Shown piece by piece: positions 3,243 through 24,176 of a stretch of DNA of 64,000 bases. The position numbers were made by a program, and so were the translations under genes. Source of the DNA: Candidatus Atribacteria bacterium (GTDB lineage: Bacteria; Atribacterota; Phoenicimicrobiia; Phoenicimicrobiales; Phoenicimicrobiaceae); assembly GCA_003513845.1 (NCBI GenBank), contig DOTB01000050.1, positions 1-64,000 of the forward strand. The letters are read 5' to 3'. Within the stretch, counting starts at the first letter, position 1. Each line of letters opens with the position of its first letter. The notes below the pieces were generated by a model. That model was given only the letters and a program-made list of their open reading frames with translations. It was not told the origin of the DNA and did not search any database.

Positions 3243-3608
3243 TTAAGGTATTATCTCAGTAATTTTAATTTTTATAGCCGCTTTAGGTTTAGGGAAGCCT
3301 CTCTTCAATTCTTCTACTTGTTTTGTTATTTTTTTATAGAGTTCCCCTTCTTTTATTACTTCTGCTCTCCCGCGAAGGCGCACCAACTTTTTTGTCTCCC
3401 TATCCACAGCAACTACCATTATTGCTTCAGGATTATCTAAAATATTTTGTAAAGTGGTTTTACCAAATATCTCAGCATAGACTAACTCTTTGTCATTTAA
3501 AACTCTCATAGTCCCCTTGGGAGCAACATCAGGTTTTCCTTGTTGGTTAACTGTGACAATAAAGCAGAGTTGTTCATTAATCACTTTGGTCATTTCAGGG
3601 GTTAGCAT
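3243..3608 (-). CDS. Pyridoxamine 5'-phosphate oxidase-like (PPOX) flavin-binding protein
   Basis: A 121-residue single-domain protein. The N-terminal half (residues ~1-60) has the split-barrel flavin-binding pattern: CFIVTVNQQGKPDVAPKGTM, then KTTLQNILDNPEAIMVVAVD. GGGAG precedes the ATG at 3608. Such small proteins bind FMN or F420-like flavins and act as reductases or oxidases on unknown substrates; no exact reaction can be given. The rubredoxin-like mini-gene directly downstream is a plausible electron partner. Confidence 0.75.
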   Translation of the reverse strand: MLTPEMTKVINEQLCFIVTVNQQGKPDVAPKGTMRVLNDKELVYAEIFGKTTLQNILDNPEAIMVVAVDRETKKLVRLRGRAEVIKEGELYKKITKQVEELKRGFPKPKAAIKIKITEIIP

Positions 3609-3726: not shown

Positions 3727-4404
3727 CTAATTTGTTTTCTTATCTGCATCTTTCTTATTTACTTCTTCGAGAGAAGAGTAGTTCAATTCTTTAAACATAT
3801 ATTCATATCCTTCTAGGGCCAGATTCCTTCCTTCTTTCTCAGCATTTAATACATCCTGGAAATAATATTCAATTGTTAAAGGCGGATAAGTTTCTAATTC
3901 ACTTTTTAAGTATTTTTCAAAGTTAAGACCTTTACTTCTATCAGCTTTAGTTTTAAATATGTTGGGATATTTCTCTTTTAATTCAATTTGCCATTTCGAT
4001 TCTATTTTAATAATTTTCTGAATAAGTATTTTATGTTCTTCATCCAAAGAATTCAAATTATCCGGAGGACCCTCTACATCACATTGAGTTTTACTTCTTT
4101 CGTATCCCATTTTTAAATTTGAATCTACTTGTTTCATATCTTTAATATTTGAACTTTCATCCATTCTTAAATATTTTTCTTTTAACAAATTTCTCCCTTC
4201 TACTATTGCGTCTTCTAATCCATTCAGGTACGACTTTAAAGTATTGTAAGACAAGGGTTTAAAAACACTTTTTCTTTCTAATATAAATAGTTTTTCACGT
4301 TCTTTGCATTTCTCTCCCTGTGTATTTGTGTGGATTTCCCGAAACATCTTATGTTCCAGTTTCACTATTCTTCTAATCACACTTTCTTTACTTTCCATAG
4401 TCAT
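3727..4404 (-). CDS. DUF4125 family protein
   Basis: 225 residues, hydrophilic, without a signal peptide or membrane segment. Two similar halves are visible, each with the pattern I/E-x-E-...-LE/N-A-x-x-E-GRNL: one near residues 10-85 (VKLEHKMF, then LEDAIVEGRNLLKEKYLRMD) and one near 125-205 (IKIESKWQIELKEKYPNIF, then LNAEKEGRNLALEGYEYM). This matches my recollection of the DUF4125 family. The function is unknown. It is the last gene of a MoxR-VWA operon, starting 79 bases after the VWA gene. AGGTGAT lies upstream of the ATG at 4404. Confidence 0.65.
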   Translation of the reverse strand: MTMESKESVIRRIVKLEHKMFREIHTNTQGEKCKEREKLFILERKSVFKPLSYNTLKSYLNGLEDAIVEGRNLLKEKYLRMDESSNIKDMKQVDSNLKMGYERSKTQCDVEGPPDNLNSLDEEHKILIQKIIKIESKWQIELKEKYPNIFKTKADRSKGLNFEKYLKSELETYPPLTIEYYFQDVLNAEKEGRNLALEGYEYMFKELNYSSLEEVNKKDADKKTN

Positions 4405-6503: not shown

Positions 6504-7367
6504 TTAAACATATTTAACATAATGGTGATTGTCACTTATCTCCTCTTCACCTTCTGCCAAATGCAAGGAAATTAAAGCGCTTTCCAAAATACTTTTTTCT
6601 ATTTGGATACTATAAACCAAAGCATCTCTAATATCTGCTCCCTCAGAAGCAAGTTCTGCTATCATCAAACTGTGTCTAGTGGAAATAGACAAAGGCATCT
6701 GGGCATTATTTCTAAGAAGATTTACCACCTTTACAATTTTTTTGGCTATTTCCCTAGATACTCCTGTCTTTGAACATAGTATTTCTTCTTCAATATCAGC
6801 AGGAGGATAATCTACTTGAATGATATAAAATCTGTCTCTTAGGGCAGCATCCATCATATCGATACCCGTAAATTCAGCACCTTCGTTTAAAGTGGCAAAA
6901 AATATTACTTCCTCTGCTACCTTAACTAACCCTAATCCTTCTACCCATATAGATCTATCTTCTGATAATACTGAAAACAGATCATTTAATGCTTTCGGAT
7001 GTTCTGGCCGATTTATTTCTTCTAAGTGAATAACACTTCTTGGTGTGGATATTGCCTGGGGGAACAAATATTCTTCAAAAAATGTATTACCTTCTTTTAA
7101 CCCTTTTTCCCCAAAAAGTTGTCCTGGCTCAGACAATAATCCTATCTGAAAAGTCGATAAAGGTCTCTTATTATTAGCCGCAAACTGTCTTACTAAACTT
7201 GATTTACCACACCCTTGTTTCCCCACAACTAAGACATTAACTGGATGCCTTTTAGCCAATTTCTCAATGCGATTTAGATTTTTTATTATCCCCTGGGGTA
7301 AAAAATAATTAGGGTCTTTTTCCGGTATCATCAATTTTACATCTCTATCGTTTATCATGTTTATCAT
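6504..7367 (-). CDS. MoxR-family AAA+ ATPase
   Basis: 287 residues forming one AAA+ domain. Walker A GKQGCGKSS at residues 49-57 and Walker B VIHLEEINRP at about 112-121 are intact, followed by sensor-1 region FFATLNEGAEFTG and DAALRDRFYIIQVDYP. This is the CobS/MoxR/NorQ-like pattern. It is the promoter-proximal gene of a three-gene operon with a VWA protein and a DUF4125 protein. The family powers assembly or metal insertion of partner complexes. AGGAG lies 12 bases before the ATG; a second ATG three codons in is an alternative start. Confidence 0.85.
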   Translation of the reverse strand: MINMINDRDVKLMIPEKDPNYFLPQGIIKNLNRIEKLAKRHPVNVLVVGKQGCGKSSLVRQFAANNKRPLSTFQIGLLSEPGQLFGEKGLKEGNTFFEEYLFPQAISTPRSVIHLEEINRPEHPKALNDLFSVLSEDRSIWVEGLGLVKVAEEVIFFATLNEGAEFTGIDMMDAALRDRFYIIQVDYPPADIEEEILCSKTGVSREIAKKIVKVVNLLRNNAQMPLSISTRHSLMIAELASEGADIRDALVYSIQIEKSILESALISLHLAEGEEEISDNHHYVKYV

Positions 7368-7527: not shown

Positions 7528-8829
7528 TTATCTCATCATTGAAGGCAGCCACAGTGCTAATTTTGAGAAAAATAAAACTAAAATTTGGGTAAGTAAGTAC
7601 AATAACATAAAAGGCACTGTCCCTTTAATGGCAATCATCAAGTTTGAAGGAAAACCTAAAGATTTAGCAATCCCATCTACCGCATAAATATTAAGCCCTA
7701 CAGGTGGAGTGAGTAAACCAATTTCAATCCCAATTACTAATATTACCGCATACCAAATAAGATCAATTTGAAGTCCTATTAAAGCTGGCAAAAAAATTGG
7801 TAAAACAATAAGCATTATAGAGGCTCCTTCTAAAAACATACCCATAATAAATAAAATAATCATAGTAATTATAATGAAAATTATTGGTGTTAACGAAGAA
7901 ACTGCAAACGATGAAATTATTTCAGAAAGGCCTATTTGGGTGGCTGCATTGCCAAAAACCATTGCCCCACATATTATAAATAGTACCATTACCGAAGATA
8001 AAACACCCTCTTCTAAAATTGGTAATATATCTTTAAAGGTAATCTCTTTATAAATAAATAATCCTACAATAAGTGCAAATAATATACCTAAAGCTGCCGT
8101 TTCTGTAGGGGTAGCCCAACCAGCATATAGGGGTACAATTATCCCAAGGGGTACTAATAAACCCCAAATACCTTCTTTGGTTGCCTTTATTCTTTCCCTC
8201 CAGGTAGCCTTTTTAGATTTAATTCTCTTTTTGTCTCTTCTATAAGCAATTACTGTATATATACTGAATAAAGCTACTGCTATAAGTCCTGGAATGATTC
8301 CGGCAATAAATAATTTCCCGGTGGACTCTTCTGAAAAAGAACTATATATAATCATAGGAACACTTGGTGGAATAAGTATTCCCAATGCTCCTCCACCAGC
8401 GATAATTCCCATACTTAAAGGCAGACTATAACCAAATTTCTTTAAATTAGTAAATGCAAAGGCACCTACCATAGCAGCAATGGCTACACTTGTTCCACAC
8501 ATTGCTGCTAATACTGCACAAGTTAAGAGTGTAGCCACCCCTACGCCACCAGGAATGTGTCGCAAATAAGCATCAAATAAATTATATAATTTCTCACCAA
8601 CCTGACTTTTAGCAAGCACAACTCCCATGGTAATAAAAAGGGGAATGGCCAATAATATAAAACTTTCTAAGCTGGAACCCATTATCTGTGCCGCAATAGT
8701 TAAAGCAGAACTCCCAAAAAATAAATAACAACCAAGTATGCCACCCATACCGAGACTAACTGCCACTGGCACACCCATAAACAACATCACTACCATTAAA
8801 ATTGCAGATATAATTAAACTTCCAGACAT
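7528..8829 (-). CDS. dctM: TRAP transporter large permease (DctM)
   Basis: About 433 residues and strongly hydrophobic, with roughly a dozen membrane segments. The frame is open further upstream, but MSGSLIISAILMVVMLFMGVP is the normal DctM N-terminus and AAAGGAAA precedes its ATG at 8829. Family hallmarks include AIPLFITMGVVLAKS and the GIIAGGGALGILIPPSVPMIIY motif. It is the ion-coupled translocation subunit for uptake of organic acids delivered by DctP. Transcribed after dctP and dctQ, with an intercistronic hairpin before it. The substrate is unknown; the neighbouring cyclase and glycyl-radical genes suggest a compound entering that pathway. Confidence 0.93.
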   Translation of the reverse strand: MSGSLIISAILMVVMLFMGVPVAVSLGMGGILGCYLFFGSSALTIAAQIMGSSLESFILLAIPLFITMGVVLAKSQVGEKLYNLFDAYLRHIPGGVGVATLLTCAVLAAMCGTSVAIAAMVGAFAFTNLKKFGYSLPLSMGIIAGGGALGILIPPSVPMIIYSSFSEESTGKLFIAGIIPGLIAVALFSIYTVIAYRRDKKRIKSKKATWRERIKATKEGIWGLLVPLGIIVPLYAGWATPTETAALGILFALIVGLFIYKEITFKDILPILEEGVLSSVMVLFIICGAMVFGNAATQIGLSEIISSFAVSSLTPIIFIIITMIILFIMGMFLEGASIMLIVLPIFLPALIGLQIDLIWYAVILVIGIEIGLLTPPVGLNIYAVDGIAKSLGFPSNLMIAIKGTVPFMLLYLLTQILVLFFSKLALWLPSMMR

Positions 8830-8910
8830 AACCGATCTTTTTCCTTTCAATTTAATTTTTGAATGTTTTAGAAAATAAAAAATACATTTTTTCTCTTCAT
8901 AAATGTTATG

Positions 8911-8941
8911 GATGCCTCTATCTAAATAGGATAGAGGCATC
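8911..8941 (-). other. Intercistronic 12-bp hairpin between dctQ and dctM
   Basis: GATGCCTCTATC (8911-8922) and its exact reverse complement (8930-8941) flank a 7-base loop. No U-run follows on the minus transcript, so it is more likely an mRNA processing or stability element that sets subunit ratios than a terminator. Confidence 0.5.
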
Positions 8942-8967
8942 ATCCTTTTATAAATTAATTTACTTAA

Positions 8968-9570
8968 CTATTTATTAGGTTCATCTAAATTTTCAAGAGT
9001 TTCTACTTCTTGTTCAACTATTGCTTCAATACTTACAGGGGTTGCAACTTTTCTTTCGTTTATAGTTAAAACAACTTCTCTAATTGCCTCAATTGCAAAT
9101 AAAATCATCCCGACTGGCATACCTATATAGATTATATACAGAGGAATATGTAGAATTAATGAGACTTGTTCTATCTCATAGTACATTTTTATTAACTTTA
9201 TTCCTTCCCAAACAAGAATTAAGCTAAAGAATACACAAATTGTATTACCAATTATTAAAAATATAGTTCGTACCTTTTCTGACAAATGGCGATAAATAAT
9301 ATCAACCCTTATGTGTCTTCTTTTTTTTAATGCATAGGCTATACCGAAAAAACAAAGCCATATTATTATATAACCATCTAATTCTACTATTCCTTTAGTA
9401 CTAACACCCCCTAATCTTGCAAATACCTGATACCATATTGTTATGATAATCACCAGCATTAGCAAAGCACTAATTTTAAAAATAATTTCCGTAGCCTTAT
9501 CTAACACTTTCCATATTTTGCTATTTAACTGTCCAGCTTGGTTAATCTCTTCTGCCGGTTTATTACTCAT
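8968..9570 (-). CDS. dctQ: TRAP transporter small permease (DctQ)
   Basis: 200 residues with four predicted membrane segments between about residues 30 and 170, the DctQ layout. Typical features are WYQVFARLGG after the first segment, ELDGYIIIWLCFFGIAYALKKRRHIRVDI in the middle and a short charged tail. GGAGA precedes the ATG. It forms the membrane complex with DctM, encoded just downstream, and receives cargo from DctP, encoded 32 bases upstream. Confidence 0.9.
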   Translation of the reverse strand: MSNKPAEEINQAGQLNSKIWKVLDKATEIIFKISALLMLVIIITIWYQVFARLGGVSTKGIVELDGYIIIWLCFFGIAYALKKRRHIRVDIIYRHLSEKVRTIFLIIGNTICVFFSLILVWEGIKLIKMYYEIEQVSLILHIPLYIIYIGMPVGMILFAIEAIREVVLTINERKVATPVSIEAIVEQEVETLENLDEPNK

Positions 9571-9602: not shown

Positions 9603-10631
9603 TTATTTTAGGTTTTGTACTTCCATAATCAAGTCATATACTTCAGGGGTTTTAGCAGTCATTCTCTTCCAGAAGTCTTCTATATCCTTGGTCCACAGAG
9701 CATATTCCTCAAGAGTAGGTATGTATACTTCTCCACGTCCGGCGATGGCTTCTTTGGCTTTTAAGCTATATACTTGATAAACATAAGCCGATTCCTTATA
9801 GCTTTCCTGCTGTATCTTGGCAGTTACATCATCTATTACCTGCTGTAAATCCTCTGGTAATCTATCGTAAAAATCTTTGTTCATTATTAAGACATTCGGG
9901 TATGATGCTACGGGGAATAAACAGATATTAGGTGCAACTTCGTGTAATTTCCTATCAACAAGGTGGCTAAAGGTCGCTACACTGGCATTTAAAGTCCCTC
10001 TTTGCATAGCCATATAAAGTTCAGCGCCAGGAACCATAGCTGAACTTGCCCCGCAATATTCTTCAAAATACTGAGCCTGTTCTGGGCCCATTGATCTAAC
10101 TACCATCCCTTTCATATCAGAGGGCACATGTATGGGTTTCTTTGAAATAATTCCCATTTCTTCTCCACCAATAGACCATACCACCCAGCCTAATGGCTTA
10201 ATACCTTTTTCTTCTGTTTTTGCAAAGAGTTTTTCCCCTATATCTCCTTCTATTACTTTGAGTAATGTATCTCTACCAATAATTACTGCAGGAATTACAA
10301 AGATTTTATACTCGGGAACAATACTTGCCAGATTAAAGGTATAGACTGATCCCATTTCACAGGCGCCGGTTCTTACCGCTGAAATCAGGTTTGTATCAGT
10401 ATAAAGCTGTCCTCCTGGGTATATTTTCACATTTAATCGCCCGTTGGATTCTTCTTTTATCATCTTCGCCCAATTAGCATATTCTATAGCTACATGATGA
10501 GTACCAGGTAAACCATGAGCAAATCTTATGGTATATACCTTGTCAGCAGCAAAAGCAAAAGCCGATCCAACTAAAAGACAAATAGCTAATACTAAAACAG
10601 AAACAATACTAATTTTTTTTACTTTTATCAT
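9603..10631 (-). CDS. dctP: TRAP transporter solute-binding protein (DctP)
   Basis: 342 residues beginning with a signal peptide (MIKVKKISIVSVLVLAICLL, then AFAAD), so it is exported. The mature part has the DctP fold signatures YTIRFAHGLPGTHH, YPGGQLYTDTNLISAVRTGA and MKGMVVRSMGPEQAQYFEEY, in which the arginine is the usual carboxylate-binding residue. AAGGAGG lies before the ATG. It captures an organic acid outside the membrane for DctQM. Its upstream region carries one copy of a repeat shared with the region upstream of the cyclase gene. Confidence 0.93.
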   Translation of the reverse strand: MIKVKKISIVSVLVLAICLLVGSAFAFAADKVYTIRFAHGLPGTHHVAIEYANWAKMIKEESNGRLNVKIYPGGQLYTDTNLISAVRTGACEMGSVYTFNLASIVPEYKIFVIPAVIIGRDTLLKVIEGDIGEKLFAKTEEKGIKPLGWVVWSIGGEEMGIISKKPIHVPSDMKGMVVRSMGPEQAQYFEEYCGASSAMVPGAELYMAMQRGTLNASVATFSHLVDRKLHEVAPNICLFPVASYPNVLIMNKDFYDRLPEDLQQVIDDVTAKIQQESYKESAYVYQVYSLKAKEAIAGRGEVYIPTLEEYALWTKDIEDFWKRMTAKTPEVYDLIMEVQNLK

Positions 10632-12218: not shown

Positions 12219-12398
12219 TCATTTTTTAGCAAAAAAATCTATTTTGGGACGGAATGATGGGCATCCATCATTTGCAGAAACAACTTTCTTATCCTTCACA
12301 GACATTATTTTCCAACAATATCCCTTCTCCTTATCTTCAACGTCTGGTTGAAATAAATCACAATCTTTACAAACCATTTTATCAAATATATTTTCCAT
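12219..12398 (-). CDS. Small cysteine-rich protein, second beta-type subunit candidate of the glycyl-radical enzyme
   Basis: 59 residues, MENIFDKMVCKDCDLFQPD at the start and CPSFRPKIDFFAKK at the end; AAGGAAAGGGG lies before the ATG at 12398. Cysteines at 10, 13, 28 and 46 (C-x2-C-x14-C-x17-C) match the small iron-sulfur subunits of benzylsuccinate synthase and 4-hydroxyphenylacetate decarboxylase, which bind a HiPIP-like [4Fe-4S] cluster. The spacing C-x2-C-x14-C is identical to that of the gene just upstream (12439-12657), so the two look like paralogues. Benzylsuccinate synthase operons have a single gene at this place, so the extra one is unusual. Confidence 0.75.
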   Translation of the reverse strand: MENIFDKMVCKDCDLFQPDVEDKEKGYCWKIMSVKDKKVVSANDGCPSFRPKIDFFAKK

Positions 12399-12438
12399 TT
12401 TTTACCCCTTTCCTTATTTTTTAATTTAACCCATCAAA

Positions 12439-12657
12439 TTAAAGTGTCTGTGTAATATTATCTTCCCAGCCGCTAGATGGCTCAAACTTATCACATTTCG
12501 GATTATCTCCTTTGATTAACTTGCCAGGAATAAATGTTGAGGTAGCTTGGGTATCTGGTAATTTCTTTCTATTTACTGTGCAAGTTCCTTTAAAAGGATT
12601 CGTAGGTGCAACCATAAAATATTTACAATCTTTACAAGTTTTCTCTTTATTTTCCAT
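12439..12657 (-). CDS. Small cysteine-rich subunit (BssB-like position) of the glycyl-radical enzyme
   Basis: 72 residues with cysteines at 8, 11, 26 and 55 (MENKEKTCKDCKYFMV, then GTCTVNR and PKCDKFEP). This is the pattern of the small [4Fe-4S] subunits of fumarate-adding and hydroxyphenylacetate-type glycyl-radical enzymes. GGAGG precedes the ATG. It lies right after the large-subunit gene, the position of bssB in bssDCAB operons. Such subunits are thought to protect or gate the radical enzyme. The C-terminal tail SSGWEDNITQTL is longer than in the paralogue downstream. Confidence 0.8.
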   Translation of the reverse strand: MENKEKTCKDCKYFMVAPTNPFKGTCTVNRKKLPDTQATSTFIPGKLIKGDNPKCDKFEPSSGWEDNITQTL

Positions 12658-12713
12658 ATTTTCCTCCGTAAATAATTTTTTATAGTTTTACATATTTTAA
12701 TTGAATTCCACAT

Positions 12714-12758
12714 GTGAGATGATGGTTATTAATTTTTATAATAAAACCATCATCTCAC
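12714..12758 (-). other. Intercistronic 14-bp hairpin after the glycyl-radical enzyme gene
   Basis: GTGAGATGATGGTT (12714-12727) is the exact reverse complement of 12745-12758, with a 17-base AT-rich loop. There is no U-run after the stem on the minus transcript. It probably stabilises the large-subunit mRNA or reduces read-through into the small-subunit genes. Confidence 0.5.
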
Positions 12759-12774
12759 TATTTAACTTTTCTTG

Positions 12775-15246
12775 TTATCCGGCTAATTCTTGTTCTGTCC
12801 GAGCAATGATAGTATCTTGAGCATATACTGAAAGGTCTATAAATCTTGCACTATAACCGGCAACTCTAACAATCAAATCCGGATATTTCTCCGGATGCTT
12901 TTGAGCATCTCTCAATTGTTCATGGTCACATACGTTAAACTGTACATGATCTATACCCAGCTTGTGCCAGGTTTTCATATAGGCAAACCATAATGGAAAA
13001 CCTTTATCGCTGTTCATCACATTATGATCTAACTTTTGATTAAGTAGACAACCCTTTTGCAAGCTATAGTCGATCTTTGCGCAGGAATTTAAAACCGCGG
13101 TTGGTCCCTTTTTGTCACAACCAATATATGGTGAGCTTCCTCCATCATCTAATACCTCTCCATGTCTCCTTCCATTAGGAGTTGCTCCAATCCTTGGTCC
13201 TAAAGTCCAATATATTGCTACATGTTGGGGAAGTGGTTTGGGATGAGCTCCAAAAAGATTGGTATTCTGTTGAAGTTCAAGGGAATGATATCTAAATAAA
13301 TTTTTTGTTACATCGTCTACGTAATCATCATCATTCCCCCATTTTGGCGCATTCCAAAAGTCCAATCTCATCTCTTCATAACCTTCCCAATTTGCCCGAA
13401 GAGCCTTTACTAACTGTTCCATAGTATATTTCTTCTCTTCAAAGACCAATTTTTTTACCGCAGCTAAGGAGTCTGCTACTACCACATCATCCATTACGTT
13501 AAACCAAGGATTACAGAATTCGTCCCATTCAATACCATCGAGACCTCTCTCCACACACTCATCATCAAGACTGGATAAAAATGGAGATTGGTAGAACTTT
13601 GCTTCTAAATATCTGGTTAGATCTCTGGACCTGGTAATTGCCGAATGAACATGTTGGTATTGAATTTTGTAAGCCTGCAGTAAATCATCAAAGGTTTTAA
13701 ACTTAGTAGGATCTCCGGTCTTTGGTCCTATTTGCATATCGGTGTAAGAATAATCATAACCATCACTTAGAGCTAATTCTAGACACTTTCCAGTATAAGA
13801 GGAACAAGCCCACCTCGTTCTCAAACCACCATGTCTTCCTGTTGGTCCCGGAGACATACATAAACACAAAGCCCATCTCCTGGCATCTTGTATGGAAAGC
13901 GTGCCACTTCCAAAACCCTGTACTAGTGAATTGATTGCAACTTCATCATTTTTAATTGAGGGGAAACCCAGTCCTCTTTTTATACATTCATAGGCATAAC
14001 GAGCAGTTAGCTCAGGCATATTTTCGTGCCATCTAAGTCCTAATGATGGCTCAGTAGTCATCGCAGTTGCTGCTGCTTCTAATATAACATTAGTTAACTC
14101 GTTGCAACCATTACTGCCATCTGGTTCTACGCCTCCGATAGTAATAATAAAGAGGTCGTTTGCCCCAGCATGAATTTCCCTATACAATCTACTCTTTATA
14201 ACTCCATGTTCTGAAACTTTTAATCTATGCAAAACTACCAGCTCTACTGCTTCTTCTCTGGTCATAGGTTGTTCTGCCTTATCTATAACACTTCTCTTAT
14301 AATAGGGCCACCACATTGTATCCATCTTGCAGGACATCCCACTTCCATAACGCTCTAAAGATTGAACAATCAGATAGGTAAACCATTGGGCTTGCACTGC
14401 ATCTCTAAAACCCCGACAGGGTTTTGCCGGTACATGGTCACATATATCAGCAATCATCAAAAGTTCTTCTTTTCTTTTGGGATTTTTCTCTTCTTCAGCC
14501 ATATATCTTGCTAACCTGGCATACCTTTTTGCCCATCTTATTACGGCTTTATCGGCAATTAACATTGCCTTCCACTCATCCATCTTTTTGGGCAAAGTCA
14601 TAGCTTCCGGTCCATTCCAGGGATTTTGGTGTAGAAATTCATCTTGGGCTTCTTTTAGTTTTTTCTCTATACGCTCAATTCTACCTTCTAAACCATCTTC
14701 GAATACACTTTCGTAAGAAGGAGTAGGACTTGAATAACCAGTCAAATAGCCCGGGGATTCCATTGATGCATTAGCGCTCTGAAGTTCTTTTTCCTCTTCG
14801 TCGATATATTTTTCCGCTTTAGCTTGAAGAGTATGGGGCTTCCACCATTCTGCAATTTCTCTAAATTCTTCTTTTTCATCAGGACAATATGGACTATTCA
14901 ACAAATCAATATTTAAAAAATAGTTACTTTCCTGATAGATGGGCATAAGGTTGGGCTTCTCAGCATGATCACCCACTAACAGCTCGTGGTCCTTTATAAA
15001 GATAGTCATATTATCTAACACATTAGCCAGGGCTTTCGCTCTTCTTATTACCCACTCTTCACCATCGGTCTCTTTAAAAGATTGGGTCATATATCTGGCT
15101 CTTTCTATTCCTGCCTTAACTCCCTTTTCGACGTATTCTCCTCCTCTGGTATGCTTCCACCAGAGAGTATCTTTTAATTTTCTTGCTCGCTCAGTCATCG
15201 GTTTAATCAATTCATCTTGTTTATCTTTTTCTGTGATATTTTTCAT
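12775..15246 (-). CDS. Glycyl-radical enzyme, fumarate-adding (X-succinate synthase) type, catalytic subunit
   Basis: 823 residues. The radical-bearing motif RVAGYSARF has its glycine at 797; the candidate catalytic cysteine is C463 in CLCMSPGPTGRHGG. The 334-residue distance between them agrees with that of benzylsuccinate synthase. The G-C-x-E motif of pyruvate formate-lyase-like dehydratases and choline lyase is absent. N-terminal stretches IERARYMTQSFKETDGEEW and KDHELLVGDHAEKP also fit the BssA/AssA group. Such enzymes join a hydrocarbon or aromatic substrate radical to fumarate. Flanking small subunits and activase copy the bssDCAB order. The substrate is unknown; an arylacetate decarboxylase-like role is the main alternative. 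Confidence 0.82.
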   Translation of the reverse strand: MKNITEKDKQDELIKPMTERARKLKDTLWWKHTRGGEYVEKGVKAGIERARYMTQSFKETDGEEWVIRRAKALANVLDNMTIFIKDHELLVGDHAEKPNLMPIYQESNYFLNIDLLNSPYCPDEKEEFREIAEWWKPHTLQAKAEKYIDEEEKELQSANASMESPGYLTGYSSPTPSYESVFEDGLEGRIERIEKKLKEAQDEFLHQNPWNGPEAMTLPKKMDEWKAMLIADKAVIRWAKRYARLARYMAEEEKNPKRKEELLMIADICDHVPAKPCRGFRDAVQAQWFTYLIVQSLERYGSGMSCKMDTMWWPYYKRSVIDKAEQPMTREEAVELVVLHRLKVSEHGVIKSRLYREIHAGANDLFIITIGGVEPDGSNGCNELTNVILEAAATAMTTEPSLGLRWHENMPELTARYAYECIKRGLGFPSIKNDEVAINSLVQGFGSGTLSIQDARRWALCLCMSPGPTGRHGGLRTRWACSSYTGKCLELALSDGYDYSYTDMQIGPKTGDPTKFKTFDDLLQAYKIQYQHVHSAITRSRDLTRYLEAKFYQSPFLSSLDDECVERGLDGIEWDEFCNPWFNVMDDVVVADSLAAVKKLVFEEKKYTMEQLVKALRANWEGYEEMRLDFWNAPKWGNDDDYVDDVTKNLFRYHSLELQQNTNLFGAHPKPLPQHVAIYWTLGPRIGATPNGRRHGEVLDDGGSSPYIGCDKKGPTAVLNSCAKIDYSLQKGCLLNQKLDHNVMNSDKGFPLWFAYMKTWHKLGIDHVQFNVCDHEQLRDAQKHPEKYPDLIVRVAGYSARFIDLSVYAQDTIIARTEQELAG

Positions 15247-15298
15247 TTTAACCTCTTAACCTCCTATTTTTTGTTAATAAACATTTTATAGAACTAAA

Positions 15299-15472
15299 TC
15301 ACTTTTTCTCAAATCTATCACATGCTGTCATATCTTCCTTAACTGGTTTTGCTGTCCAATATTTGCATTTTTCATCCTGTTGAGGTAAAAAACAATCACC
15401 TTTACCTTTCGCATAATCCAAATCACTCTGTTTTAATGGTTTAAAATTTTTACATTCTTTGCAAACAGCCAT
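15299..15472 (-). CDS. Small cysteine-rich subunit (BssC-like position) of the glycyl-radical enzyme
   Basis: 57 residues, MAVCKECKNFKPLKQSD at the start, with cysteines at 4, 7, 27, 36 and 51 and a CDRFEKK end. AAGGAGGTGG precedes the ATG at 15472. It sits between the activase gene and the large-subunit gene, exactly where bssC (gamma subunit) stands in benzylsuccinate synthase operons. It probably binds an iron-sulfur cluster and stabilises or regulates the large subunit. The fifth cysteine sets it apart from the two small proteins downstream. Confidence 0.78.
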   Translation of the reverse strand: MAVCKECKNFKPLKQSDLDYAKGKGDCFLPQQDEKCKYWTAKPVKEDMTACDRFEKK

Positions 15473-15508
15473 CTCCCCACCTCCTTACTTTTTATTACTC
15501 TTTTTTCT

Positions 15509-16447
15509 TTACTTTTCGACGCCAATAAGCCCACCAATAGTAGTGGTAATATTATTCTTTTCCAAAAAATTCTCAATCCACTCTACCTGTTCCTTTTCCA
15601 TAAATGGTTCACCTCTATAGATATAATTTAAACCTAATTGGGTGTATTTCTTCTCTGCAGAATTGTGGAAAGGCAAAAGATCGACTGCTATTGTCGGATT
15701 TTGAAGGGCTTGAAGATAATCAACCATCAGACTAAAATTTTCTTTATTATCATTAAATCTGGGAATAACCGGGACTCTAATCCTGATATTTGCTTTTAGA
15801 GCGGACAATCTTTTTAGATTATCTAAAATCAGTCTGTTATCTACCCCGATAACATCTTTATGTTTAATTGAATCCATACACTTTAGGTCATACAAGAATA
15901 AATCTGTATATTTCGTTATTTCCTTTAAAATTTCCCATTTACTATACCCAGAAGTTTCTACTGCGGTATGGATCATTTCGGCTTTGAATTTCTTTAATAA
16001 TTTAAGGCTAAATTCCGGGAAGAATAAAGGATCGCCCCCGCTTAGGGTGACTCCGCCATTTGAGGTTTCATAAAAAGGTTTGTCTCTTAGTGCTTCATCA
16101 ACAATTTGCTCAAAAGCCAAAGCTTGTCCTACTTTTTCTAAGGCTTTAAACGGACAGCCTTCGACACACTTTAGACATTTATTACATTTTTCTTTATCTA
16201 TTAAAATAGCTTCTTTTTTGGGGGACCTCCAACTTATTGCTCCTTGAGGACAATTTTCAATACACCTTCCACAATGTTGGCACTTATCTTCATGGTAGTA
16301 AATATCTACTTTTGGGGATTTGCATTCAGGATTATGACACCAGGGGCAATTTAGACTACAACCTTTAAAAAATATTACGGTTCTTATTCCGGGACCATCA
16401 TTAGCACAGTACCTCTGTATTTCAGTAATTAAAGGAATTTTAAGCAT
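15509..16447 (-). CDS. Glycyl-radical enzyme activating enzyme (radical SAM)
   Basis: 312 residues. The radical-SAM cluster motif C-x3-C-x2-C is at C30, C34 and C37 (FFKGCSLNCPWCHNPE). A ferredoxin-like insert follows with two [4Fe-4S] motifs, C56-C59-C62-C66 and C88-C91-C94-C98, as in BssD and other activases of non-PFL glycyl-radical enzymes. TSNGGVTLSGGDPLFFPEF near residue 130 contains the SAM-binding GGDP-type motif. It abstracts hydrogen from glycine 797 of the partner enzyme. First gene of the catabolic operon; an IclR-type dyad lies 50 bases upstream. GAGGAGT precedes the ATG. Confidence 0.92.
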   Translation of the reverse strand: MLKIPLITEIQRYCANDGPGIRTVIFFKGCSLNCPWCHNPECKSPKVDIYYHEDKCQHCGRCIENCPQGAISWRSPKKEAILIDKEKCNKCLKCVEGCPFKALEKVGQALAFEQIVDEALRDKPFYETSNGGVTLSGGDPLFFPEFSLKLLKKFKAEMIHTAVETSGYSKWEILKEITKYTDLFLYDLKCMDSIKHKDVIGVDNRLILDNLKRLSALKANIRIRVPVIPRFNDNKENFSLMVDYLQALQNPTIAVDLLPFHNSAEKKYTQLGLNYIYRGEPFMEKEQVEWIENFLEKNNITTTIGGLIGVEK

Positions 16448-16665: not shown

Positions 16666-17427
16666 TTACGACCATTCCCACTTTAAAAACCCTATTTGGG
16701 CAGAAATTTTTTCACCAGCAGCTAATATTTTTGATATTAATTTATATTTACCTTGTTCATTTTCTTTATTATAACGAATGTTCGGCCCACCTACACCCAG
16801 GACTGCTACTAATTCATTATAATTATTTAAGATTGGAACAGATATAGCATTTACCCCAGGATACACTTCTTCTTTGCTGATGGCAAATCCTCTCTTTCTT
16901 ACTATTTCCAACTCCTCTTTTAATTTGCTCATATCTATTTTATATTTATCTATTACCTCTTTTTTCTTCTCATCTGGTAAAAAAGCTAAAAATATCCTTG
17001 CTGAAGATCCTTTATCTAACGGCAATTCTGTCCCAATATCTAAGGTAAAACGGAGGGGTTGTGGTCCATCAACTTTTTCTATAATTATATTTCTATTATC
17101 AATTATTTGAGATAATATTACTGTTTCTCCTACTTCTTTAGCTAAGTTTTTTAATACTGGCCTACTAACTTTGACTAAATTTACATTACCATAATGGGCT
17201 AAGGCAAGTTTTAATAGTTCATCTCCACAAAGATATATTTTTTTATCTTTGTCTTTTTCTAGTAAACCTTCTTCACATAAGGTATTTAAAATTTCAAAAA
17301 TTACACTTTTTGCTAATCCTAAATGAGAGGCAAGTTCAGTTATCCCCCAGCCATTTGGTTTTTGAGTAAAACATTTTAATACTTGCGCTACTCGCCTTAT
17401 ATTAATATTTTTCCTTTTTTCAGTCAT
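16666..17427 (-). CDS. IclR-family transcriptional regulator
   Basis: 253 residues. The N-terminal winged helix-turn-helix (about residues 8-70) contains VLKCFTQKPNGWGITELASHLGLAKSVIF, followed by the IclR effector domain with GNVNLVKVSRPVLKNLAKEVGETVIL, DIGTELPLDKGSSARIFLAFL and VNAISVPILNNYNELVAVLGVGG. AAAGGA precedes the ATG. IclR proteins sense small acids and control catabolic operons. Its own promoter carries a perfect dyad at 17445-17461 and related dyads precede the activase operon and the OYE gene, so it is the likely regulator of the island. Confidence 0.92.
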   Translation of the reverse strand: MTEKRKNINIRRVAQVLKCFTQKPNGWGITELASHLGLAKSVIFEILNTLCEEGLLEKDKDKKIYLCGDELLKLALAHYGNVNLVKVSRPVLKNLAKEVGETVILSQIIDNRNIIIEKVDGPQPLRFTLDIGTELPLDKGSSARIFLAFLPDEKKKEVIDKYKIDMSKLKEELEIVRKRGFAISKEEVYPGVNAISVPILNNYNELVAVLGVGGPNIRYNKENEQGKYKLISKILAAGEKISAQIGFLKWEWS

Positions 17428-17607: not shown

Positions 17608-18240
17608 TTAACTAAATAATCTTTTCAAAAGTATTCCAAAGTTATCAGTTAATCTATAAAGATTATTCATCCCCTCAATATCTTTTATTATTGCTCCTCT
17701 TTCGTTTCCAAAAATTGTATTCTCATAACAAGAGCCCACAACTTGCATCTCATTAACCAACATAAAATTATTCAAATTCCACAAAGCCATACCACCTCCT
17801 GCCCGACGTGCAACAGTTATGGCTGCTCCTACTTTACCTTTTAAAGCTGAATATGGGATATTTTTATAGGTAAAACCGGGATTATTAAAATCATCTTTAA
17901 TGACAGATTTAGCTAGGATATGAAAATATCGGTTACCCCGGGTTATTAAGTCTTGCATTAAGGGGGTGATATTAAAACTATATATGGGGCAGGCCAAGAT
18001 AATTCCCTGAGCAGTTATCATCTTCTCCATAATTTCCACAAGGTTATCATTAATAGGACATTTCCTTGTTCTTTTACAATTATCACAGGCCCGACAATGT
18101 TCAATCTTTTTGTTAGCCAGAGTTATTATTTCAGTCTCAATATCAATCTTGGATAATCTTTTAGACATAATCTGTAAAGCTAACTCTGTGTTACTATTCT
18201 TACGATGACTACCTGCAATAGCTATAACATTAATAGACAT
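17608..18240 (-). CDS. Iron-sulfur flavoprotein (NADPH-dependent FMN reductase-like), second of a pair
   Basis: 210 residues with a flavodoxin-like fold: N-terminal VIAIAGSHRKNSNTELAL binds the FMN phosphate. The compact cluster motif C49-x2-C52-x2-C55-x5-C61 (CRACDNCKRTRKC) is that of iron-sulfur flavoproteins, which hold one [4Fe-4S] cluster next to FMN. GGAGGGA precedes the ATG. It lies 35 bases after a paralogue and just before iclR. A redox role for the nearby pathway is likely; electron donor and acceptor are unknown. Confidence 0.82.
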   Translation of the reverse strand: MSINVIAIAGSHRKNSNTELALQIMSKRLSKIDIETEIITLANKKIEHCRACDNCKRTRKCPINDNLVEIMEKMITAQGIILACPIYSFNITPLMQDLITRGNRYFHILAKSVIKDDFNNPGFTYKNIPYSALKGKVGAAITVARRAGGGMALWNLNNFMLVNEMQVVGSCYENTIFGNERGAIIKDIEGMNNLYRLTDNFGILLKRLFS

Positions 18241-18275
18241 ATTCCCTCCTCTGTTTCTATAAAAAAGATAATAAT

Positions 18276-18905
18276 TTAGGAAGAATGATAAGGATAAATG
18301 TCATCACTGTATTTTTTCTTAACATAATTAGATAGAGGAATTGAATATTCTTCCGGATATCTGTTACCATTCTCCTTAAATAATACCATTAAACGACCTA
18401 TTTCCCATACAGATTTCATTGCATATTCATTTTTAATTACATCACCGGGTATAGTACCATAGTGAGCAACACATTCGACACATAACATATGAGAATATAT
18501 GAAAAAGCGCCGCAAAACCCCAACTGCTGTATCCACCGCCACTCTTGCACCTACTGCAATTCCTGCTCCTACCTTGTTAGATAGTATTCCAGAAGCAGTA
18601 TAAGGTAACAACCTATCCAAAAAAGCAACCCCCATACCACCAATGGTCCAATAAGTAGGAACTCCGATAACTATGCCATCAGAAGTTACCAATTTTTCGC
18701 CAATCTCTTCCATATCATCAGTTAAGTGACATTTTCCAGATTTTATACACTTCATGCACCCATCGCAAAGTTGTATTTTTTTATCTCTAACGAAGATAAC
18801 TTCGCTCTCTGCTCCGGCTTTTGTTGCCCCATCCAAAATTTGTTTTACTAAAACCTCTGAATTTCCACCGACTCTCGGTGTGCATACTATGCCTACAATT
18901 TTCAT
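18276..18905 (-). CDS. Iron-sulfur flavoprotein (NADPH-dependent FMN reductase-like), first of a pair
   Basis: 209 residues. VGIVCTPRVGGNSEVLVKQIL is the FMN phosphate loop and C47-x2-C50-x2-C53-x5-C59 (CDGCMKCIKSGKC) the [4Fe-4S] motif. VIGVPTYWTIGGMGVAFLDR is the flavodoxin-fold segment around the isoalloxazine ring. AAGGGGGT precedes the ATG at 18905. Paralogous to the next gene, but with low identity outside the motifs, so the pair is probably old. It belongs to the OYE-TAXI transporter group of the island by position and strand. Confidence 0.82.
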   Translation of the reverse strand: MKIVGIVCTPRVGGNSEVLVKQILDGATKAGAESEVIFVRDKKIQLCDGCMKCIKSGKCHLTDDMEEIGEKLVTSDGIVIGVPTYWTIGGMGVAFLDRLLPYTASGILSNKVGAGIAVGARVAVDTAVGVLRRFFIYSHMLCVECVAHYGTIPGDVIKNEYAMKSVWEIGRLMVLFKENGNRYPEEYSIPLSNYVKKKYSDDIYPYHSS

Positions 18906-18978
18906 TGTAATTACCCCCTTTTTTTCATTAAACCTTTTTATAATAAAAAAACATTTTTGCTAACAAATATGTATCTCT

Positions 18979-19030
18979 GGGAGAAAAGGGGATTATAGAT
19001 TAATACCTCATTAATACCCCTTTTTCTCCC
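18979..19030 (-). other. Large inverted repeat between the TAXI receptor and flavoprotein genes
   Basis: GGGAGAAAAGGGG (18979-18991) is complementary to 19017-19030 apart from one bulged base. On the minus transcript the T-run precedes the stem rather than following it, so it is not a standard terminator. It may uncouple expression of the transporter part from the flavoprotein part of the operon. Confidence 0.45.
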
Positions 19031-19079
19031 AAAAAAAAATCTTCCCTTTAATTAAATTTCAAACTATTAATTTTAATTT

Positions 19080-20042
19080 TTATTTTATTACTCCAACTTC
19101 TTTGAAATATTTCTCTGCGCCGGGATGTATAGGAACATTTCCCCATCCCGCAATAGCACTTCCGGCTAACTCTAATGAATTAAAACCATTGTGTGCCGCT
19201 TTTAGCTCATTTAAGTTATCCCAAACAGATTTAGTAAATTGGTAAACAAGTTCAACGTCTAAATCTTTATGGGCAATAATCATAATTGGGAAAGCTAATG
19301 TTTTTACAGTTTTATCTACACCTTTATAAGTGCCGGCAGGAATTGAGGTAGGCGCCATTATGAATCCCATAGCCTCATTAAACTTATCGGCATTTGGTCC
19401 ATCTAATGGCAATAAATCTATACTTTTAGTAACCGCAACCGAAGCAATGCTCGGCATTGGTGTATTGGCAATAATAACAGCTGCATCGATTTGCCCATCT
19501 TTTAAAGCATCAGCAGATTCTTTGGTACTCAAAGATGATATTTTATAGTCACCAGATTCTAACCCATAGGCTTCTAACATAGCTGTGGCAATCCCTCTGG
19601 TAGACTGGCCTGGAGCTCCTATATTTATTCTCTTTCCCCTTAAATCTTCAATGCTATTAAAATTATCTTTAGCATTTACTAAAATGTGTATGGGACACAT
19701 TAGAAAGTTGAATAAACCCCGAATATCAGGATATTTAGCATAACCTTTAATTACAACATTATTACTTGCTTCAGCAATAGGTATTGTTTGGTTAGCGATT
19801 AAACCTATATTCGCCTCAAAACCTTCTGTAACTTGAGGGAAAATTTTCAAGCCGTCTAAATGTTTATTTGCTACGTCAGAAAAAACCCCCCCCATAATAT
19901 AAGGAGAAGATCCGGAACCAGATGTACCTAACGTCCACATAATACCTTCAGCTTTTACCTGAATATTAAAACTACAAGCTACTATAGTAAAAAAAAGTAA
20001 GCCTATCAAAAACGGTTTTAAGATTTTTACTTTAATTTTCAT
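19080..20042 (-). CDS. TAXI-family TRAP transporter solute-binding protein
   Basis: 320 residues with a signal peptide (KILKPFLIGLLFFTIVACS, then VKAEG). A lipobox-like IVACS may make it a lipoprotein. The mature protein has the TAXI hallmarks WTLGTSGSGSSPYIMGG, LIANQTIPIAEASNNVVIKG and DLRGKRINIGAPGQSTRGIA. It binds a solute outside the membrane and hands it to the fused permease encoded 86 bases upstream. The substrate is not known; the permease and OYE genes in the same operon suggest an organic acid. Confidence 0.9.
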   Translation of the reverse strand: MKIKVKILKPFLIGLLFFTIVACSFNIQVKAEGIMWTLGTSGSGSSPYIMGGVFSDVANKHLDGLKIFPQVTEGFEANIGLIANQTIPIAEASNNVVIKGYAKYPDIRGLFNFLMCPIHILVNAKDNFNSIEDLRGKRINIGAPGQSTRGIATAMLEAYGLESGDYKISSLSTKESADALKDGQIDAAVIIANTPMPSIASVAVTKSIDLLPLDGPNADKFNEAMGFIMAPTSIPAGTYKGVDKTVKTLAFPIMIIAHKDLDVELVYQFTKSVWDNLNELKAAHNGFNSLELAGSAIAGWGNVPIHPGAEKYFKEVGVIK

Positions 20043-20128
20043 TTTTTATACCTCTTTTTTATTAATATTAATTGCTGTAGTTAAACTTAATAAATATTAT
20101 CAATTTAAACATTTTTTTATTTTAATAC

Positions 20129-22117
20129 TTAATTACAATCTTCTATATTTTGTGTACTATACTCCCTATTCTTATCCCCCCTAACATTCATTTTAAATTT
20201 AATATTCTTTAACTGGTAAATCACCACAATGAATACTAATAATAATCCGCTTATAACCATTAACCACCCCCCTTTTAGATTCATTACCAAAAGACCGGCT
20301 ATAAATAGAATTATTCTTTCTATCCAGCTTGTTTTGTTTATAAACCACCCTTGTAAGCTACTTGCAATTGCAATAACTCCCATTGTTGCAAGCATGAAAA
20401 CCAATAATATTTCATACCAACTGCCCACCATTAATAATTGAGGGTTAAAAATCCATATATACGGAGCAATAAAAACAGCCAAAGCAAAACGAGTTGCTGT
20501 TAAACCTGTCTTAAACCAATCTGCTTTTGCTATGGCAGCAGTTGTAATCGCAACCAAACAAACTGGTGGCGTTAACCCCGATAATATAGCGTAATAAAAG
20601 ACAAAAAAGTGTGCAGCAAATGCTGAAACGCCCAATTGCATCATTGAAGGAGCAATAAAAATAGCTGTTAATAAATACACAATAGGAGTAGGCATACCCA
20701 TACCTAAAATCAAACTCATAATCATCGTAATAAATAATAGTAAAAATAGATTCCCCCCAGCTAAGGCTATCGCAATACTTGAAAAACGCATACCTAATCC
20801 AGTTAAGGTAACCGAGCTAATAATTAAGCCAATCCCTGCACATAATATAGCAATTTTCAGAACAGAATAAGCGCCTTCTTCACAACTTTGCAAGAAATTT
20901 TTCCAGCCAAAGTGATTTTCCTTTCGAAAGTAAGTAACTATAATACAACAAATTATGGCTATAAAACCAGATTTTGTAGCACTATAACCTGCGATCATCA
21001 ATGTATAAATTAATACCAATAGAGGTAATAATAAATACCCTGAAGATAAAACTACATCTTTAAATTTTGGTAATTTATTCTTATTTAGACCTTTTATACC
21101 ACTACTAAGTGACTCAAAATGAATTATTGAAAAGACATTTATGTAATATATAACTGCCGGGATCAATCCAGCTAAAGCTATCTTCCCATATGGGACCCCA
21201 ATTATCTCAGCCATAATAAAAGCCGCTGCTCCCATAACTGGTGGCATTAATTGCCCCCCGCAGGCTGAAATTGCCTCTATTGCAGCAGCCACATGGCTTT
21301 TAAATCCTTCTTTTTTCATCATCGGAATTGTAAAGGAACCTACGGCTGCTGCGCTACCAAGAGAACTACCTGTTATAGTCCCCATCAAAGAACTACTAAT
21401 CACGCAAGACTTTGCCATCCCACCTGAGTACTTACCCACTAATGAAAGGGCTAAATCGATAAAGAAATCTATTACCCCAGTCTTTCCCAAAAATACGCCA
21501 AACAATATAAAAATATATAGGTAAGTTGAAGATACTGCTAAACCAATACCAAAAATTCCCTCTGAAGAATATGATATTAAATAGATTAATCGTTCCCAAG
21601 AAATCCCTGGATGGGCAAAAAGTCCTGGAAAATATGGACCAAACAACATATACGCTAAACCAAGGAGCATAAGAAAAAAGAAAGTACGATTTGAACGCCT
21701 GTTTGCCTCTAATACTAATAATATAACAATAATCCCCACAAAATTATCTAATTTTGTTAAATTTTCCAGGTTCATTACTCTATTAGCTACTGCTTCATAA
21801 AAAAATACTATATACCCAACAGAAAACAAGGAGATAAAGACAAGAAGATAGTCAATTATATCTCCTATTTTATTTTGATGATTTTTCTTGCTTATTGGAT
21901 AAATTATGAAGAACAAAACTAAAATAAAAATTAAATGTGCCGCCCGATGAATAATGGCAGTCTTATAAATACCAAAAGCAGCCGTATATAATTGAAATAA
22001 AGAAAGACTGATAGCCAAAACTGTTACTAATTTCTTAAGGTTGCCTGCAAGCGGCCTCTTGATTACCTCTTCACTTTGCAAATCAATATTTTTTTTCTTC
22101 TTTTTAAATATATTCAA
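20129..22117 (-). CDS. TRAP transporter fused permease (DctQM fusion)
   Basis: 662 residues starting at a TTG (22117) after GGCGGTGA. The N-terminal third (about residues 25-200) corresponds to the DctQ part, and the remainder to DctM with 12 or more helices; landmarks are GSFTIPMMKKEGFKSHVAAAIEAISACGGQLMPPVMGAAAFIMAE and LILGMGMPTPIVYLLTAIFIAP. Such fusions pair with TAXI receptors, as here. It starts 28 bases after the OYE stop codon, so the two are probably cotranscribed. The charged C-terminal tail of about 25 residues is cytoplasmic. Confidence 0.92.
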   Translation of the reverse strand: MNIFKKKKKNIDLQSEEVIKRPLAGNLKKLVTVLAISLSLFQLYTAAFGIYKTAIIHRAAHLIFILVLFFIIYPISKKNHQNKIGDIIDYLLVFISLFSVGYIVFFYEAVANRVMNLENLTKLDNFVGIIVILLVLEANRRSNRTFFFLMLLGLAYMLFGPYFPGLFAHPGISWERLIYLISYSSEGIFGIGLAVSSTYLYIFILFGVFLGKTGVIDFFIDLALSLVGKYSGGMAKSCVISSSLMGTITGSSLGSAAAVGSFTIPMMKKEGFKSHVAAAIEAISACGGQLMPPVMGAAAFIMAEIIGVPYGKIALAGLIPAVIYYINVFSIIHFESLSSGIKGLNKNKLPKFKDVVLSSGYLLLPLLVLIYTLMIAGYSATKSGFIAIICCIIVTYFRKENHFGWKNFLQSCEEGAYSVLKIAILCAGIGLIISSVTLTGLGMRFSSIAIALAGGNLFLLLFITMIMSLILGMGMPTPIVYLLTAIFIAPSMMQLGVSAFAAHFFVFYYAILSGLTPPVCLVAITTAAIAKADWFKTGLTATRFALAVFIAPYIWIFNPQLLMVGSWYEILLVFMLATMGVIAIASSLQGWFINKTSWIERIILFIAGLLVMNLKGGWLMVISGLLLVFIVVIYQLKNIKFKMNVRGDKNREYSTQNIEDCN

Positions 22118-22145
22118 ATTATTTTCACCGCCATCTTATTAAAAT

Positions 22146-24119: not shown

Positions 24120-24176
24120 TTCTTATCCTCCCTGTTATTACTTATTTCTTGCGATTTTCAAATTTTGAAACTTTAA

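Follow-up and report, generated by a model that had tools for sequence, protein, structure and literature searches.

JS1 Atribacteria, uncultured bacteria of the subsurface, occur in oil reservoirs and in other anoxic settings, and the part in oil degradation proposed for them rests on the fae enzyme. Enzymes of this kind work without oxygen and activate unreactive molecules by coupling them to fumarate. The fae operon is already known, as faeDCAB of JS1 Atribacteria was published in 2019 (PMC6776118) and in 2024 in Microbiome (PMC11227167). In its main-text parts, the 2019 paper of Liu et al. placed faeDCAB with DctPQM in JS1 metagenome-assembled genomes (MAGs), including UBA6794, UBA4082 and UBA6251, and proposed short-chain n-alkanes as substrates. 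On the basis of transcripts in enrichments, the corresponding parts of the 2024 paper widened the proposal to include hexadecane, eicosane and triacontane, and in both the fae clade is termed deep-branching. The closest systems described elsewhere are benzylsuccinate synthase (BSS; BssDCAB with BssE and BssF), which acts on toluene, (1-methylalkyl)succinate synthase (MASS; MasD), which acts on n-alkanes, and limonenylsuccinate synthase (PMC12583861). The present analysis concerns the fae operon at 12219-16447 (minus strand) of a 64,000-nucleotide stretch from a Candidatus Atribacteria bacterium (assembly GCA_003513845.1, contig DOTB01000050.1, positions 1 to 64,000), which is called the window. 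The same genes, gene order and transporter genes were found here as in the two JS1 papers, and the catalytic subunit FaeA shared 89-92% identity with its counterparts in three named MAGs (Candidatus Atribacteria bacterium UBA6251, UBA6794 and UBA4082). The locus shared with BSS the operon order, three subunit families and fumarate-binding side chains; with MASS it shared the fold, the Cys, Gly and Arg residues, a shortened loop after this Arg, and more than two small subunits. A third HiPIP-like protein and a histidine in the pocket, which are not described in the main-text parts of the JS1 papers, are both reported here.

FaeA is an X-succinate synthase as judged from its sequence, predicted fold and residues, and the addition of its substrate to fumarate is expected from the chemistry of the family. 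Five minus-strand open reading frames (ORFs) encoded the activase, then the large subunit between two small subunits, and last a third small protein with cysteines, and the gaps between them, calculated from the ORF coordinates, were 36, 52, 117 and 40 bases. The activase gene faeD (15509-16447) encoded 312 residues with ferredoxin-type 4Fe-4S motifs (Pfam Radical_SAM and Fer4). FaeD scored 356 bits against TIGR02494 (cut-off 174) and 319.5 bits against the BssD model TIGR04003, under its cut-off of 496. The gamma-type subunit FaeC (15299-15472, 57 residues) matched PF08201 BssC_TutF with 62.5 bits (cut-off 25). The beta-type subunit FaeB (12439-12657, 72 residues, four Cys) matched PF18512 BssB_TutG with 31.6 bits (cut-off 25.6), and this match was confined to residues 3-33. 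By these Pfam matches over the cut-offs, FaeB and FaeC are predicted to be small Fe-S subunits of the BssB and BssC type. The catalytic subunit gene faeA (12775-15246) encoded 823 residues, including Cys463 and Gly797, and its Pfam scores (PFL-like 520 bits, Gly_radical 108 bits) were above the family cut-offs.

The best match of FaeA in the PDB was the benzylsuccinate synthase TutD with 896 bits; MasD scored 571 bits and other glycyl-radical enzymes 373 bits or less. The predicted model of FaeA had a mean predicted local distance difference test (pLDDT) value of 91.4, and the nearest structure was BSS (4pkf_A, template modelling score 0.96). Identity in the structure alignments was 49-50% to BSS, and identity to MASS was 37%. 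Gly797 was aligned to Gly829 of BssA and Cys463 to Cys493, and the spacing between the two residues was 334 in FaeA and 336 in BssA. The cysteine loop read L-C-M-S-P-G (LCMS at 462-465), without the GCxE loop that is the motif of glycyl-radical dehydratases and lyases. Moreover, the scores of FaeA against the family models of decarboxylases, dehydratases, lyases and PFL were all under the curated cut-offs. A database search with FaeA gave 3604 matches at E <= 0.001 among 7992 scored candidates, and the best 120 of them included nine clusters (P0001-P0009) with 81-92% identity to FaeA, followed by the next at 56%. Chance was therefore ruled out, because so many candidates matched and full-length copies with 89-92% identity were present in three other genomes.

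In a tree of 79 rows, the fae rows (8) formed one clade with a support of 100. This clade stood beside 49 benzylsuccinate-side rows with a Shimodaira-Hasegawa-like approximate likelihood ratio (SH-aLRT) of 99, and apart from 17 alkane-type and 5 outgroup rows. The 74 X-succinate rows were split from the 5 outgroup rows with an SH-aLRT of 99, although the outgroup branches were long. The same topology was obtained with 39 rows; the alkane and outgroup branches were long. The genome of the window also encoded two other glycyl-radical enzymes, each beside an activase-like gene (contig C9, 35012-37306; contig C60, 30412-32706); they were 34-36% identical to FaeA and grouped with HypD in the tree.

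Active-site residues were compared in BssA numbering among 10 rows of the fae clade, 112 aryl-side rows and 120 alkane-side rows. The BssA residues to be mapped were taken from the available parts of PMC4848970, PMC12358834 and PMC12583861; the toluene contact printed as Tyr179 in PMC12358834 was taken by us as Tyr197, since Leu stands at 179 in this numbering. In the alignment, the fumarate-binding side chains at 197, 199, 508, 613, 615 and 707 were kept in FaeA as Tyr171, Ser173, Arg478, Trp581, Asn583 and Gln674, and the fumarate Arg at 508 was present in every row (10/10 fae, 112/112 aryl-side and 120/120 alkane-side). The window FaeA retained Glu189, Tyr197, Ser199, Ile384, Leu391, Leu492, Arg508, Trp613, Asn615, Gln707 and Val709, and Leu711 of BssA was replaced by Ile. 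In contrast, the 120 alkane-side rows mostly had Gly189 (117), Gly384 (110), Thr391 (115), Ala492 (111), Thr615 (119), Phe617 (117) and Glu707 (116). The alkylsuccinate pocket letters Glu707, Thr615 and Phe617 were absent from FaeA, which had Gln, Asn and Met there. Among the 52 columns that separated the two groups at 90%, FaeA had the aryl letter in 37, the alkane letter in 1 and neither in 14; at 80% (83 columns), the values were 52, 2 and 29, respectively. Both the side chains that bind fumarate and the majority of pocket residues thus appear to be of the benzylsuccinate type, with a Phe385-to-His change, and this is an addition to the published account. His at 385 (His359 of FaeA) was specific to the clade (10/10 fae, 0/112 aryl-side and 0/120 alkane-side rows), and Met at 617 (Met585) occurred in 9/10, 12/112 and 0/120 rows, respectively. 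Furthermore, position 708 was His in all 9 fae rows with a letter there and in neither other group (0/112 and 0/120), and position 619 was Asp or Glu in 9/10 fae, 1/112 aryl-side and 0/120 alkane-side rows; these two changed positions may or may not face the pocket.

Several claims of an earlier, sequence-only reading were borne out by these results. The activase-small-large-small order of bss operons agreed with the ORFs and Pfam families, and the radical Gly797, Cys463, their BssA-like spacing and the absence of GCxE were all confirmed by the alignment with BssA. The assignment to the fumarate-adding class held in the tree and in the PDB and family scores, which place FaeA with X-succinate synthases and not with decarboxylases or dehydratases, and the fumarate-binding residues (Arg, Tyr, Ser, Trp, Asn and Gln) had not been lost. 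The range 12219-16447 was also right, but the third small cysteine protein inside it (12219-12398) had not been named.

According to these comparisons, FaeA is an X-succinate synthase nearest to the benzylsuccinate branch and within the published JS1 fae clade, for which a ring substrate is likelier than an n-alkane, with a probability of about 0.65. A number of observations weighed against this reading. The loop after Arg508 was two residues shorter than that of BSS and had Ala and Cys in place of Gly512 and Gly513, the backbone of which binds fumarate in BSS (PMC4848970, PMC12358834 and PMC12583861, in part); in the alkane-side rows the loop was one residue shorter, and 119/120 of them lacked Gly512. 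Unlike in BSS, the toluene contacts Phe385 and Ile617 were His359 and Met585. Position 197, Tyr in the window, was His in 3 of 9 rows of the fae clade. The aryl-side rows had been gathered by a search with FaeA itself, which biased the comparison toward them. In the approximately unbiased (AU) test with 39 rows, neither a clade of fae with the alkane-type rows (p 0.23) nor one of aryl with alkane-type rows (p 0.26) was rejected, and the deep branching order was therefore unsure. Moreover, unlike in the BSS system, no bbs-type genes were found in the scans of the window, which covered its ORFs except dctQ, dctM, a transporter gene at 20129-22117 and the ORF at 28454-28756. Liu et al. likewise reported a lack of bbs genes in JS1 in the parts of PMC6776118 considered.

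The published reading is that n-alkanes are activated to alkylsuccinates, which are ligated to coenzyme A (CoA), rearranged by a mutase and fermented. JS1 enrichments on n-alkanes reportedly expressed fae, but the transcripts came from mixed cultures (PMC11227167, in part). Liu et al. reported that each of their fae MAGs had assK, mutase and pccA (main-text parts of PMC6776118), whereas assK is absent from JS1 according to the corresponding parts of a 2024 single-cell paper (PMC10826368). In its shortness, the loop after Arg508 is similar to that in the alkane enzymes; most of the pocket letters, on the other hand, are those of benzylsuccinate enzymes, and FaeB belongs to the BssB family, unlike the MASS beta subunit. 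A CoA ligase tracked fae among the 24 genomes of the order analysed (window genome, G027 and G043 only). The mutase gave no support, since methylmalonyl-CoA mutase, cited for alkane use in both JS1 papers, was present in 23 of the 24 order genomes, some as fragments, regardless of fae, and was uninformative on the substrate. Because assK was reported in the fae MAGs of Liu et al. and position 197 varied in the clade, the estimate for a ring substrate was lowered and that for n-alkanes raised. On balance the n-alkane reading is considered unlikely, though it retains an appreciable chance; the benzylsuccinate-like pocket speaks against the published assignment, as judged from sequence comparison, but does not prove a substrate. 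Should the pocket comparison hold, the n-alkane role now accepted becomes doubtful, and part of its support, the mutase, belongs to the core genes of the order. A ring compound attacked at a benzylic or allylic position is more likely than an n-alkane as the substrate, but is suggested more weakly than the family chemistry. His359, Met585 and the short loop after Arg478 form a small residue set, by which the substrate question becomes directly testable.

The pocket histidine also allows a polar or ionisable co-substrate, such as a methyl-bearing phenol or carboxylate, which would be imported by the neighbouring TRAP (tripartite ATP-independent periplasmic) transporter and held by its polar group at His359. 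The clade-specific His385, His708 and Asp/Glu619 point in this direction, as do the TRAP genes in all four fae genomes and the DctP score below the TIGR00787 cut-off. However, the Gln189 rows, taken as p-cresol enzymes (PMC12583861, in part), mostly have Phe385 despite their polar substrate, and the cargo of the transporter may simply be fumarate or succinate, which is what Liu et al. propose in the parts of PMC6776118 considered. This explanation is improbable. Equally doubtful is the extended idea of a separate functional type of X-succinate synthase, with alpha, beta and gamma subunits plus a second HiPIP-like subunit, a polar histidine pocket, an imported ionisable substrate in place of a hydrocarbon and a fumarase in its own run. 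Another kind of glycyl-radical enzyme, such as a decarboxylase, a dehydratase or a PFL-like enzyme and not an X-succinate synthase, would share the fold and Pfam domains, which are common to glycyl-radical enzymes; given the sub-threshold scores of those family models, the gap in PDB scores, the presence of both small-subunit families and the kept fumarate Arg, its probability is very low indeed.

For a ring-type substrate, the following mechanism can be proposed. FaeD would install the radical on Gly797, from which it would pass to Cys463, as in the family. The Cys463 thiyl would abstract hydrogen from a methyl group activated by its benzylic or allylic position, and the substrate radical so formed would add to fumarate to give a substituted succinate, again by analogy with the family chemistry. 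More tentatively, FaeB, FaeC and the third HiPIP-like protein might stabilise and gate the catalytic subunit, an AAA+ ATPase and a VWA-like protein might aid maturation, a fumarase and the TRAP importer might maintain the fumarate supply, and the fae-linked CoA ligase, encoded elsewhere, might activate the product.

The distribution of these genes was explored in 50 genomes of the phylum, 24 of them from the order, with G000 being the genome of the window. faeA (E <= 1e-150) was found in 4/50: G000, G027 (98% complete), G039 (78% complete, fae locus split over two contigs) and G043. An AMP-forming CoA ligase (E <= 1e-30) adjoined the fae island in G027, with a 66% homologue in G000 (contig C48) and a 100% match in G043; it was present in three of the four fae genomes and in no other genome of the order, G039 also being without a match. 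This ligase is the best candidate for product activation. The genome-wide search for bbs functions was limited to type III CoA-transferase, with 1 match in G000 and none in G027 or G039; the lack of a match in the 98% complete G027 also weighs against the ring-substrate reading. As a fae-linked gene this transferase was rejected, since it occurred in 8/50 genomes, including fae-bearing G000 and G043 but not G027 or G039. Acyl-CoA dehydrogenase was rejected too, with matches in G000, G027 and the fae-negative G028 among 13 genomes tested; BcrA-D-like proteins near it (Pfam HGD-D, BcrAD_BadFG) were under the benzoyl-CoA reductase cut-offs. The sequence-only reading had noted that the window shows no CoA transferase or ligase and no mutase, which is correct for the window, but all three are encoded elsewhere in the same genome, the CoA-transferase being of type III. 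It had also mentioned that fumarate-adding enzymes were proposed for JS1 Atribacteria, in agreement with the main-text parts of PMC6776118 and PMC11227167. Its suggestion of novelty failed for the operon, which was already published, and was fair for substrate and pathway, as the proposed n-alkanes fit the active site poorly.

The conserved set in the four fae genomes comprised the IclR-type regulator, faeD-C-A-B, the third small protein, dctP-Q-M, the ATPase, the VWA-like protein, a DUF4125 protein, a PNPOx protein and the two fumarase subunits, alpha and beta; in the window, all of these genes lay on the minus strand. The run extends to about window position 1631, which is an addition to the published account. 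The third small protein (12219-12398, 59 residues) shared the pattern C-x2-C-xn-C-xn-C-x2-F with FaeB and FaeC and was present in all four loci with 76-89% identity to the window copy. It is a candidate for a third small subunit; its HiPIP matches, at E 0.002 and 0.004, were weak and did not reach the Pfam threshold, and its predicted model had a pLDDT of 54.8. The MASS delta subunit is rubredoxin-like, in contrast (PMC12358834, in part). Between this gene and dctP, a putative cyclase (PF04199, 10889-11791, minus strand) was observed, with no match in the other three fae loci compared. The IclR-type regulator (16666-17427; PF01614 and PF09339), in the same place in the four loci, probably regulates the operon; its pairwise identity was 58-76%, yet 98% between G027 and G043.

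The solute-binding protein gene dctP (9603-10631) matched PF03480 with 177.7 bits and TIGR00787 with 140.7 bits, under the cut-off of 175, and was kept in all four fae genomes, as were the small and large membrane subunits dctQ (8968-9570) and dctM (7528-8943), which were named by position. A MoxR/NorQ-type AAA+ ATPase (6504-7367; AAA_5, CbbQ_C) was found (E <= 1e-40) in exactly the 4/50 genomes with faeA and is probably the BssE counterpart. The 667-residue VWA-like protein (4483-6486), with a weak C-terminal VWA match (E 0.011, below the cut-off), adjoined the ATPase in 4/4 fae genomes with 80-83% identity to the window copy; no match was found in plasmids, and none in the PDB at E <= 1. These two proteins may correspond to BssE and BssF, by family and position for the ATPase and by position for the 667-residue protein. 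In BSS operons bssE and bssF follow bssDCAB, whereas here the two genes follow the TRAP genes; BssE is essential, and disruption of bssF stops growth on toluene, to which effect downstream genes may contribute (PMC5874301, in part). No literature joining benzylsuccinate synthase with MoxR and a chaperone was found.

A DUF4125 protein (3727-4404; PF13526, 146.9 bits) and a PNPOx-like flavin protein (3243-3608; PF01243, 56.9 bits) came next. In a limonene degrader, BssE, PNPOx and DUF4125 proteins lie within the two pathway operons: the lrc operon, which bears BssE, also encodes LrcL, a DUF4125 protein, and the limonenylsuccinate synthase operon encodes LssP, a PNPOx-type protein (available parts of PMC12583861). 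This synthase differs from FaeA in Thr at 384 and His at 617, and its operon bears CoA-transferase and beta-oxidation genes, unlike the window (same source). The class I fumarase alpha gene (2203-3048) scored 387 bits against PF05681 and 407.6 against NF004885 (cut-off 276) and was the sole match at E <= 1e-40 in G000; the beta gene (1631-2239) scored 216.7 bits against PF05683 and 312.3 against NF005310 (cut-off 238). Fumarase as a fae-specific gene was rejected, as it was present in 40/50 phylum and 16/24 order genomes (E <= 1e-40). A malic enzyme (426-1601; PF00390, PF03949) followed fumarase in several fae-negative genomes as well and is probably a neighbour outside the fae system proper. 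Hence, the tie of fumarase to fae is one of placement, not presence. In G039 it was part of the run itself, flanked by PNPOx and the ATPase, all on the same strand (L091). A fumarase beta-like fragment was observed between dctM and the ATPase in G027 (C3, 10627-10809, L092), with an intact copy further down, and may be left over from an earlier arrangement of the genes. The fumarase of the run could be a source of fumarate, for which Liu et al. look outside in the parts of PMC6776118 considered; the words fumarase, fumarate hydratase and malic are absent from the main text of PMC6776118 and PMC11227167.

G043, which is MAG UBA6794, belongs to another family than the window's genome (rpoB protein 72%). 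Its fae island was 93.5-95.5% identical to that of G027 at the DNA level over about 17 kb, while the rpoB proteins of the two were 71% identical. Transfer of the island between the two JS1 families was not taken as shown, since the G043 contig resembled the DNA of the other family throughout. An NfnB-like flank protein (named by eye) on this contig was 86% identical to G027 and 75-79% to the other tested genomes of the family of G043 (f2); a second NfnB-like copy lay on another G043 contig (76% to the flank copy), and fumarase and malic enzyme were also doubled in G043. On contig C68, an aconitase-like protein (named by eye) was 95% identical to G027, whereas the six other f2 genomes tested gave no match to it at E <= 1e-100. 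The fae contig C74 (L094) and the ligase contig C68 (L108) both resembled the first family's DNA, and tetranucleotide distances gave no independent help because the two contigs compared are homologous. Both contigs look mis-binned, which is a simpler reading than transfer. With G043 excluded, faeA and the ATPase were each found in 3/49 genomes, all of one family, and the ligase in 2/3. The published claim of vertical descent of fae in the class should be weighed against this probable mis-binning. On C68, the CoA ligase and a fragment that by eye resembled acetate kinase were flanked by two 700-bp copies, 96% alike and one an rve-type transposase by scan.

Beyond the regulator, two FMN-reductase-like proteins, a TAXI-type TRAP system and a BaiCD/OYE-like flavoenzyme were encoded at 17608-24119 (minus strand), and UBA4082 had only the two reductases in the matching region. 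UBA6251 (L004) was 90% identical in DNA to window positions 19047-24143, above the value for the fae genes (84-85%). In G027, a PurL-like gene broken by stop codons was observed (C13, about 19168-21361), with a second PurL-like gene elsewhere in this genome. In the window, a purine riboswitch (RF00167, 57973-58076, minus strand, 72.7 bits) preceded a run of purine biosynthesis genes.

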